From Alloalcanivorax dieselolei B5 (lineage in GTDB: Bacteria; Pseudomonadota; Gammaproteobacteria; Pseudomonadales; Alcanivoracaceae): 64,000 nt of DNA. The stretch covers positions 806,001-870,000 of the forward strand of contig NC_018691.1 of the NCBI RefSeq assembly GCF_000300005.1. Direction: 5' to 3'. The translations under genes were made by a program, and so were the position numbers. The notes under the pieces were generated by a model, which was not told the DNA's origin, did not search any database, and saw only the letters and a program-made list of their open reading frames with translations. Positions 61,814 to 64,000 of this stretch are shown here, piece by piece; position 1 is the first letter of the stretch; each line of letters opens with the position of its first letter.

Positions 61814-63070
<1,257 letters not shown>

Positions 63071-63078
63071 ACGGCGAA

Positions 63079-63106
63079 TTGATAGTTGACAGTGGACAGT
63101 TGACAG
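63079..63106 (+). repeat. Left heptamer array of the four-helix-bundle insert
   Basis: Four contiguous 7-bp units: TTGATAG, TTGACAG, TGGACAG, TTGACAG. It begins 9 bp after the glyA stop codon and is the inverted counterpart of the array at 63509. Each TTGACAG contains a perfect -35 hexamer, but no -10 follows at the right distance. Confidence 0.9.
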
Positions 63107-63130
63107 CGAAAACAAAACGAGGCGTCAAGG

Positions 63131-63487
63131 ATGACGACAAAATTTGTGGCGCGGGAGAAATCCCGCGCTTTTGCATTGCGGGTGGTGAAGTGTTGCCGGT
63201 TGCTCCAGGAAGAGATGCGGGAATACGTATTGAGCAAGCAATTGCTTCGTAGCGGAACGGCGATTGGGGCACTGATTCGCGAAGCGGAGCAGGCTGAGAG
63301 TCGGGCGGATTTCGTTCATAAGCTGGCGATTGCACTGAAGGAAGCCAACGAAACGGAGTATTGGCTGGATTTATTGACTGAGTCTGGCTATTTAGATTTG
63401 CGGCACGGACGGTCTATGATGGCGGATACCAAAGAGTTATTAAGAATTCTGACAGCCATTATCAGAACCACCAAGGCTCGAGGATAA
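63131..63487 (+). CDS. Four-helix-bundle protein, 23S rRNA intervening-sequence type
   Basis: A 118-residue helical protein of the family first seen in 23S rRNA intervening sequences (S23-like, avd-related). Conserved stretches include SRAFALRVVKCCRLL, LLRSGTAIGALIREAEQAES and KLAIALKEANETEYWLDLL. Function is unknown; family members form pentamers and one relative (Avd) works with diversity-generating reverse transcriptase. No reverse transcriptase is here. Codons 7-13 form an 8-bp hairpin with a GAAA loop. The gene lies between two inverted heptamer arrays and is lower in GC than its neighbours, suggesting acquisition. Confidence 0.9.
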   Translation: MTTKFVAREKSRAFALRVVKCCRLLQEEMREYVLSKQLLRSGTAIGALIREAEQAESRADFVHKLAIALKEANETEYWLDLLTESGYLDLRHGRSMMADTKELLRILTAIIRTTKARG

Positions 63488-63508
63488 CGCGGGTTGCTGG
63501 TTTTTTAG

Positions 63509-63536
63509 CTATCAACTGTCAACTATCAACTGTCAA
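63509..63536 (-). repeat. Right heptamer array of the four-helix-bundle insert
   Basis: Four contiguous units on the plus strand: CTATCAA, CTGTCAA, CTATCAA, CTGTCAA. Paired unit-for-unit with the left array, 24 of 28 positions are complementary, with one further G-U in RNA. It ends 11 bp before the nrdR start. Confidence 0.9.
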
Positions 63537-63547
63537 CTGGTCTTCCC

Positions 63548-64000
63548 ATGTACTGTCCTTTCTGCGGCGCGCAAGATACCAAGGTGATCGATTCGCGGCT
63601 GGTGGCCGATGGCGGCCAGGTGCGGCGTCGCCGTGAGTGTCTGAGCTGTAACGAGCGGTTCACCACCTTTGAAACCGCTGAGCTGGTGATGCCGCGGGTG
63701 ATCAAATCCGATGGCACTCGCGAGCCGTTCGATGAGAACAAGCTAAGGGCCGGCATGCAGCGGGCGCTGGAGAAGCGTCCGGTGAGCGTGGAGGACCTGG
63801 AAGCGGCCATCAGCCGCATCTGCCACCGGCTGCGGGCCACCGGCGAGCGGGAATTGCCGGCGCGGGAGCTGGGTGAGCGGGTAATGGAAGAGCTGCAGTT
63901 GCTGGATGATGTGGCCTATGTGCGCTTTGCCTCGGTCTACCGCAGCTTCCAGGACATTTCCGAATTCGCCGCCGAAGTGGACCGGCTGCGCAGCAAATCT
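63548..64000 (+). CDS. nrdR: Transcriptional repressor NrdR (C-terminus beyond window)
   Basis: The frame is open from ATG 63548 to the right edge (151 residues; the family is about 150-165, so little is missing). It has an N-terminal zinc ribbon ([26 protein letters not shown]) and an ATP-cone ([15 protein letters not shown]). It represses ribonucleotide reductase genes in response to dATP/ATP. No Shine-Dalgarno sequence is visible; the heptamer array ends 11 bp before the start. Confidence 0.95.

Follow-up and report, generated by a model that had tools for sequence, protein, structure and literature searches.

The small gene between glyA and nrdR in the window (the whole 64,000-nt stretch analyzed here, from a host genome of 4,928,223 bp in one contig, labeled G000) belongs to a widespread class in which a gene for a four-helix-bundle (4HB) protein lies between two inverted arrays, each of about five 7-nt sites. 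The architecture, the period, the subfamily-specific array unit, and the gene-dependent dispersal of the arrays are all well supported. Our reading, to which we assign a probability of roughly 0.6, is that the cassette is a gene-bearing member of a family of elements of the type of the 23S rRNA intervening sequences (IVSs), located outside rRNA, whose protein acts in trans on dispersed arrays.

The glyA-nrdR cassette and its protein

The cassette is 461 bp long and begins with a plus-strand array of four heptamers at 63079-63106 (TTGATAG, TTGACAG, TGGACAG, and TTGACAG), followed by the plus-strand inner end CGAAAA at 63107-63112. The gene encoding a 118-aa 4HB protein, a putative array-recognizing protein, occupies 63131-63487 on the plus strand, and the right array of four heptamers (CTATCAA, CTGTCAA, CTATCAA, and CTGTCAA) follows at 63509-63536 in the inverted, minus-strand orientation. 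Directly after it, the CTG at 63537-63539 (minus strand) forms a partial fifth unit, such that the minus strand reads as five YAG triplets at 7-nt spacing. Both flanking genes are on the plus strand and lie outside the element, glyA at 61814-63070 and nrdR at 63548-64000, the latter continuing beyond the window end; the location outside rRNA given in an earlier note on this DNA thus holds.

Tandem Repeats Finder detected 4.0 copies of a 7-bp period in each array, with a shifted register for the right one (63512-63539), and a repeat finder paired the two arrays as an inverted repeat. Together with the sequence itself, this confirms the earlier description of a single small gene between two opposite arrays of four heptamers. 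Comparing the left array with the reverse complement of the right gave the same figure for the potential pairing of the ends as had been claimed, 24 of 28 positions, and the arms are paired in the minimum free energy RNA fold predicted for 63070-63548 (z = -5.0 versus 100 shuffles). This pairing also suits a different reading, according to which the arrays serve mainly at the RNA level, as terminators, stabilizers, or RNase III sites at gene ends, under regulation by an RNA-binding 4HB protein and with no movement involved. Lag-7 identity of at least 17/21 was found in none of 209 300-bp chunks in the rest of the window; a cassette with arms identical to those of the window cassette (L262) scored 18 and 19 of 21.

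The assignment of the small gene to the 4HB family is borne out by matches of the 118-aa ORF to PF05635 (90.5 bits, cut-off 33.8) and TIGR02436 (99.8 bits, cut-off 24), both above cut-off. A profile search at E 0.001 detected no domain besides PF05635 in this protein, including no Y1 (HUH) transposase domain, and no catalytic domain is known in it. Its closest named relatives, among the best 80 of 492 confirmed relatives, are from Alcanivorax and Alloalcanivorax. Between the 4HB orthologues at glyA-nrdR, dN/dS is below 1, with 25 of 28 pairs falling within 0.02-0.23 and the G001-G011 pair, which has very few changes, at 0.30; two pairs were not computable, and many dS values exceed 1, making the ratios rough.

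Gene-less arrays in the same genome

The cassette is not the self-contained lone insert that the earlier note had suggested, as dozens of copies of its arrays are spread through G000. Searched with a 27-letter version of the array, this genome gave 42 forward and 47 reverse matches (at most 3 mismatches, with some matches overlapping). Among 58 fetched stretches, 36 contain a plus array followed by a minus array, 20 contain one array (two of these, L079 and L088, span one and the same array), and 2 contain none at threshold. The opposite order, minus then plus, occurs in 0 of the 36 inverted pairs. Thirty-three of the pairs are 74 to 307 bp long and carry no 4HB gene. The earlier note had held that arrays occurring widely without the gene would speak against its idea; they do so occur in the host genome, and we read these copies as the gene-less relatives of the cassette.

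When compared by eye, many of the gene-less elements share the inner ends GACAG-CGAAAA and TTTTCG-CTGTC, and the window cassette has the CGAAAA end on its left. Their interiors are varied modules, including a CTGTGGGAAGCTTGCTTGCAAGCGA hairpin, a terminator-like GAGGCCGCGCCC hairpin, and a GCGTATACGCAAA motif; the CTGTGGGAAGCTTGCTTGCAAGCGA hairpin is one that we take to resemble Pseudomonas REPs. ORF ends lie within 10 bp at 25 of the 72 flanks, involving 21 of the 36 elements, per a rough ORF scan with no control. The genome also harbors a second PF05635 gene (G000 265771-266046, in L001/L091), which by eye has its own inverted arrays of alternating 7- and 8-bp units (GCAACAC and GCTTGCAC).

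The remaining three of the 36 pairs are about 1.4 kb long and hold an apparent IS3-type transposase gene pair between the arrays, the type being read from the ORFs. Located in L033 (503000-504800), L034 (1501600-1503400), and L035 (2939200-2941050) of G000, they are three copies of one IS3-like element, with identical 105-aa and 286-aa ORFs between the heptamer-element arms. We read them as insertions into heptamer elements, which may be a preferred target of this IS3-like element.

These copies bear on the possibility that the arrays are spread by unrelated machinery (IS or RAYT) with the 4HB gene as a passenger. The many dispersed copies without the gene, the three with an IS3-type-looking gene pair, and the lack of a known catalytic domain in the 4HB protein fit such a scenario. 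Nevertheless, the three IS copies have identical ORFs and look like insertions into elements, and IS-driven spread was rejected. The passenger reading also leaves unexplained that independent 4HB genes at different loci and from different phyla likewise carry heptamer arrays (see below), and we consider it improbable.

Gene alleles and array abundance in the genus

A PF05635 gene is present in 12 of 13 species of the genus, for a total of 18 genes, and each of the 18 has, by eye, heptamer-type units on at least one flank, the units being of one of several sequences. At glyA-nrdR specifically, the 4HB gene is found in 8 of the 13 species. The other five have a gene-less element of another heptamer family at this position, AAGTTGA-type in G005 and G002 and GGATNCA-type in G009, G003, and G004. 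In the comparison of relatives called for by the earlier note, none of the 13 species has a clean empty glyA-nrdR site.

The abundance of the arrays tracks the gene at this locus. Combined TTGAYAG and TTAAYAG matches, which overlap within arrays and are not counts of elements, number at least 57 in all eight species with the glyA-nrdR gene and at most 8 in all five species without it, the species being few, related, and thus not independent. With the gene, the TTGAYAG/TTAAYAG matches are 165/3 in G000, 115/15 in G012, 101/11 in G007, 5/88 in G008, 32/43 in G001, 12/48 in G011, 16/41 in G006, and 17/89 in G010. Without it, they are 0/0 in G002, G003, and G009, 0/2 in G004, and 8/0 in G005, which thus has eight TTGAYAG matches without the glyA-nrdR gene. 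The reversed-pattern control for TTAAYAG gave a single match across the 13 genomes together; for TTGAYAG this control is uninformative because an array of the reversed heptamer is nearly the same array in another register.

Two alleles of the 4HB gene occupy the locus, A in G000, G012, G007, and G008 and B in G001, G011, G006, and G010. When G000/G012 are compared with G001/G011, similarity is 93-97% over the final 400 bp of glyA and 90-98% over nrdR but only 70-71% over the 4HB gene; the two alleles at this locus are old. The flanking arrays follow the allele in 8 of 8 species: those of A are of the TTGAYAG type and those of B of the TTAAYAG type, TGAAYAG or GGAACAG occurring as variants, with one right-arm unit of the other kind in the B species G001 and G011. 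The dominant dispersed unit agrees with the allele in 7 of 8 genomes, narrowly so in G001 (32 versus 43). The exception, G008 (86% complete), has allele A and dispersed matches mostly of the B kind. Its glyA is 98.7% like that of the B-type G010 and its 4HB gene 95.8% like that of the A-type G007, with which a recent cassette swap would fit, an explanation arrived at after the fact.

Element sites in related genomes

Element sites of G000 were compared between relatives. At site E1, an element is present at the same place in G012, G001, and G011 and absent in G007 and G010; at E2 (G000 968141-968329), it is present in G012, G001, G011, G007, and G010 and absent in G003; and at E3, it is present in G012 and G011. 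The elements at these sites in relatives often have their own unit and different interiors. At E2 in G012, the left arm is of the TTAAYAG type while the right units are CTGTCAA, and between G001 (contig C66, L199) and G011 (contig C4, L200) the E2 interior is inverted with arms and flanks kept.

A further 16 elements, taken from 32 flank pairs from which E1-E3 (already examined) and others (on length) were left out, were compared by their joined flanks with G012, G011, and G001. Of these 48 comparisons, 44 were resolvable, those unresolved being site 10 in G012, site 7 in G011, and sites 1 and 14 in G001. Judged by the inter-flank distance, with the sequence between the flanks checked in part, no empty site was found in any of the 44 across the three relatives, so movement there is rare or old. 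The distance is 118-270 bp in 40 comparisons, 2.4-2.5 kb in three (one site in all three genomes), and 1.2 kb in one. At L043 (G000 ~1105.9 kb), the flanks are 0.2 kb apart in G000 and 2.4-2.5 kb apart in three relatives, possibly the result of a deletion between two elements.

Across the 16 sites and E1-E3, G001 has TTAAYAG at nine sites where G000 has TTGAYAG, TTGAYAG at three, and at the remaining seven of the 19 sites a mixed element, one broken by a contig end, or no listed match. The element positions are old, with turnover affecting the unit sequence and the interior.

Conserved positions between close species, like the ORF ends near element flanks and the paired arms of the window cassette, are points in favor of the arrays being mainly RNA elements, as is the excision of the Coxiella IVS RNA by RNase III (PMC4990558). 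That explanation leaves unaccounted for the replacement of units at fixed sites in step with the gene allele, the swapped or inverted interiors at one site, and the presence of a cassette inside a plasmid gene. As a full account it appears rather unlikely to us, though it is compatible with recognition of the arrays in trans by the 4HB protein and could be partly true.

Heptamer arrays at 4HB genes in other taxa

The association of 4HB genes with heptamer arrays extends well beyond the genus. For the subfamily of the window protein, we analyzed 80 named loci, the best 80 of 492 confirmed relatives, whose hosts include Cyanobacteria, Bacteroidota, Planctomycetota, Anaerolineales, Nitrospira, and others. 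The threshold of 17/21 identity at lag 7 was reached in the left flank at 47 loci, in the right flank at 54, in both at 36, and in either at 65 of the 80. Other lags from 3 to 15 reached the threshold at most twice, except for the harmonic 14; shuffled flanks gave 0 and distal chunks 4 of 146. The heptamer arrays that the earlier note had proposed to look for beside other 4HB genes are therefore found both in the genus and in other phyla.

A second set was drawn from the host's own phylum, where PF05635 is present in 62 of 397 genomes. At 67 of 70 loci, three with short flanks being left out, the threshold was reached on the left at 21, on the right at 27, and on both sides at 12, so many proteobacterial loci are without a strong array per side at this threshold. 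The controls were again near zero (other lags at most 3 per side except the harmonic 14, lag-7 shuffles 0, distal chunks 3 of 134). At six proteobacterial 4HB genes (L133, L145, L152, L156, L158, and L162), the flanking period is 8 (GGGGAGTA-like) and not 7. A search with Rfam among 20 mostly array-poor loci of the 70-locus set revealed no hidden rRNA IVSs and one tRNA.

These controls bear on ordinary short-tandem-repeat slippage, under which the gene would lie between arrays by chance. Heptameric simple repeats are over-represented in some bacteria (PMC4692102), which lends this idea some plausibility. The inverted orientation, the fixed period, the near-zero controls, and the co-occurrence of the arrays with the gene all speak against it; chance or generic slippage was rejected on the lag and shuffle controls, and we regard its probability as close to negligible.

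The unit of the array is also specific. Inward-oriented runs of at least 3 TTGAYAR-type units occur on the left at 41 and on the right at 45 of 68 own-subfamily loci outside Alcanivorax, and outward-oriented runs at 5 and 10 of the 68, respectively, so the orientation is not absolute. Such arrays occur at 0 of 65 other-subfamily loci (of 68, two own-like loci being set apart), at neither of the two own-like loci of the phylum set, and in 0 of 68 shuffled flanks. Their presence at own-subfamily flanks and in none of the 65 others indicates that the array unit follows the protein and not the host. A unit set by the protein subfamily would be unexpected if the 4HB gene were a passenger, and thus argues against that scenario. 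Recognition of the arrays in trans by the 4HB protein is likely.

An inverted-repeat control was less informative. In the own-subfamily set, 5 of 80 loci exceeded the 99th percentile for mismatched pairs (medians 21 and 13), a weak result because unrelated loci share the unit; as such, we relied on period and orientation there. The corresponding number in the proteobacterial set was 21 of 67 (medians 18 and 10).

A second array family, AGTAGGC, is present in 13 of the 397 genomes, 10 of which have PF05635 (62 of 397 overall). The five genomes with the highest counts, G170, G067, G083, G063, and G234 (52, 36, 22, 12, and 8), all have a 4HB gene flanked by AGTAGGC, and three others, G262, G392, and G247, have AGTAGGC arrays (2, 6, and 3 matches) without a PF05635 match. 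The reversed AGTAGGC control pattern gave 17 matches in G177, a hint that this genome has a further heptamer array family. On spread by viruses, little information was gained. One relative came from viral_contigs (L344), its arrays scoring 19 and 16 of 21; of two phage records, the one examined (L342) has no arrays at threshold.

A cassette inside a plasmid methyltransferase gene

A DNA cytosine methyltransferase gene of the Nostoc plasmid pNPM1 is interrupted by a 4HB cassette whose CAATTCG arrays are perfect. The CAATTCG cassette is also present in pNsp_c and p057_G (Nostoc cassette records L343, L348, and L349). The methyltransferase gene is uninterrupted in eight copies, namely those of pC052_C, p057_N, UHCC 0302, Halotia, Trichormus, two MS1 plasmids, and NIES-3756, and is truncated differently in pC052_A; pNsp_b (L357) has only the downstream part of it. 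The pNPM1 cassette replaces approximately 330 bp of the gene, with no target duplication visible, and CAATTCG is found near the left junction in 6 of the 8 intact copies, a post hoc observation. Comparison of these plasmid sequences supports mobility of 4HB cassettes as a class, which is the level at which the earlier suggestion of a possibly mobile element can be upheld.

About five sites per arm and a probably pentameric protein

Among runs of at least 3 YAG triplets at 7-nt spacing, 54 of the 88 arms of G000 have 5 triplets, the maximum in that genome. Five is also the commonest length in G006 (11 of 28, again the maximum), G008 (11 of 27, with five exceeding it), and G001 (12 of 22, with four exceeding it), and AG runs in the 70-locus phylum set likewise have their peak at 5 (32 of 86 flanks, with 14 above it). 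Counting a TKRA core, by which a partial end unit is missed, puts the peak at 4 for own-subfamily loci of other taxa (29 of 84). The window cassette has a YAG run of 4 on the left and 5 on the right.

A search of PDB sequences retrieved two relatives of the window protein, 2RLD (E 5e-34) and 2GSC, with five chains in each. The title of the 2GSC paper, as cited in PMC10053308, names five four-helix bundles. By homology, the window protein is probably a pentamer, and we propose one heptamer site per protein subunit.

The matching of left and right arms within elements was assessed by permutation, using 32 elements with two 4-unit arms from the 53 stretches L033-L085 in G000 and all fetched stretches (14, 14, and 12) in the other three genomes. 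Within one array family, arm coupling is not significant (p 0.12 in G000 and 0.73 in G008). It is significant in G006 (p 0.004) and G001 (reached by 0 of 20,000 shuffles); both genomes mix two array families, so that the coupling there reflects family-level matching only. Compensatory pairing arm by arm is thus not supported.

A mechanism can be sketched in which the probably pentameric 4HB protein would bind an array as a single strand, RNA or DNA, with one heptamer per subunit, and would act in trans on matching array pairs genome-wide. Gene-less elements would then be maintained, copied, or overwritten with the cognate unit, as RAYT maintains REPINs. Since no catalytic domain is known in the 4HB protein, strand transfer would need host enzymes or array homology; the latter route may be glimpsed in Nostoc, where the cassette junction lies near a native copy of the cassette's own heptamer. 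A more specific version, which we put forward tentatively, is that PF05635 proteins are pentameric readers of heptamer arrays, with one YAG-type site per subunit and a subfamily-specific unit, and that a swapped allele would cause the resident arrays to be overwritten with their positions unchanged. One such site per subunit would lead to about five sites per arm and to the constant period of 7.

Comparison with known systems

Intervening sequences are found at helix 25 of 23S rRNA as well as at helix 45. The 23S rRNA IVS of Coxiella burnetii, 428-444 nt long and located in helix 45, is described as having terminal inverted repeats forming a 28-bp stem and GACAGAT heptamers upstream of its S23p ORF (PMC4990558). 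The likeness to IVSs is thereby closer than the earlier note could tell. The window cassette shares the S23p/PF05635 family (the Pfam family is named after the IVS protein), a similar size (461 bp versus 428-444 nt), and terminal inverted repeats of about 28 bp (24 of 28 matching here) together with tandem heptamers beside the ORF (PMC4990558). It differs in lying between glyA and nrdR and not in a 23S rRNA gene, and in having dispersed gene-less relatives in the same genome. On our reading, the 23S rRNA IVS would represent this type of element at an rRNA location.

By analogy, the RAYT-REPIN system offers the closest working model. As described in PMC3116915, a gene is flanked by the repeat, families of repeats are tied to specific genes, and there are many gene-less inverted pairs with predicted hairpins, to which the 36 pairs in 58 stretches correspond here. 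Repeat abundance likewise depends on the cognate gene, as in the 8 of 8 versus 5 of 5 species above, few and related as these are. Unlike in that system (PMC3116915), the window protein is a 4HB protein and not a Y1 transposase, and the element ends are tandem heptamers and not REP palindromes.

Other systems are less similar. Avd of the diversity-generating retroelements (4DWL) has been suggested to be homologous to the PF05635 member 2GSC (PMC10053308), but 4DWL was not among the results of our profile search of PDB sequences, and at the locus between glyA and nrdR there is no reverse transcriptase, template, or variable repeat. With respect to MITEs, the gene-less elements do have terminal inverted repeats, their interiors do not by eye resemble shortened 4HB genes, and no clean empty site offered a basis for scoring a target-site duplication.

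Intergenic heptamers have been reported as GGGAATC in Xanthomonas and GGGGA(C/T)T in Nostoc (PMC4692102) and as TAACTGA in Beggiatoaceae and cyanobacteria (PMC4679880), and one of these two papers states that detailed literature on heptamer repeats is unavailable. Like the arrays here, these are tandem 7-bp repeats, largely intergenic, the quoted cases having over 150 sets per genome (PMC4692102, PMC4679880). The link to a 4HB gene is not made there, the words "four helix" and "S23" being absent from the main texts of both papers. Across titles, abstract openings, and term counts in the open-access literature, we found no general link between 4HB genes and heptamer arrays.

Implications

The glyA-nrdR cassette joins three separate topics, namely the IVS protein, the unexplained intergenic heptamers, and REPIN-like dispersed elements. 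PF05635 gains a testable role in array recognition along with a structural prediction of five sites for five subunits, and the two alleles with two array types in one genus amount to a natural experiment. If our reading is true, a genome can have dozens or more of its intergenic sites shaped, with no known transposase, by a gene family that occurs across many phyla. On the more specific and more tentative version given above, this class of elements, the 23S rRNA IVS included, would explain the long-puzzling surplus of intergenic heptameric repeats in bacteria.
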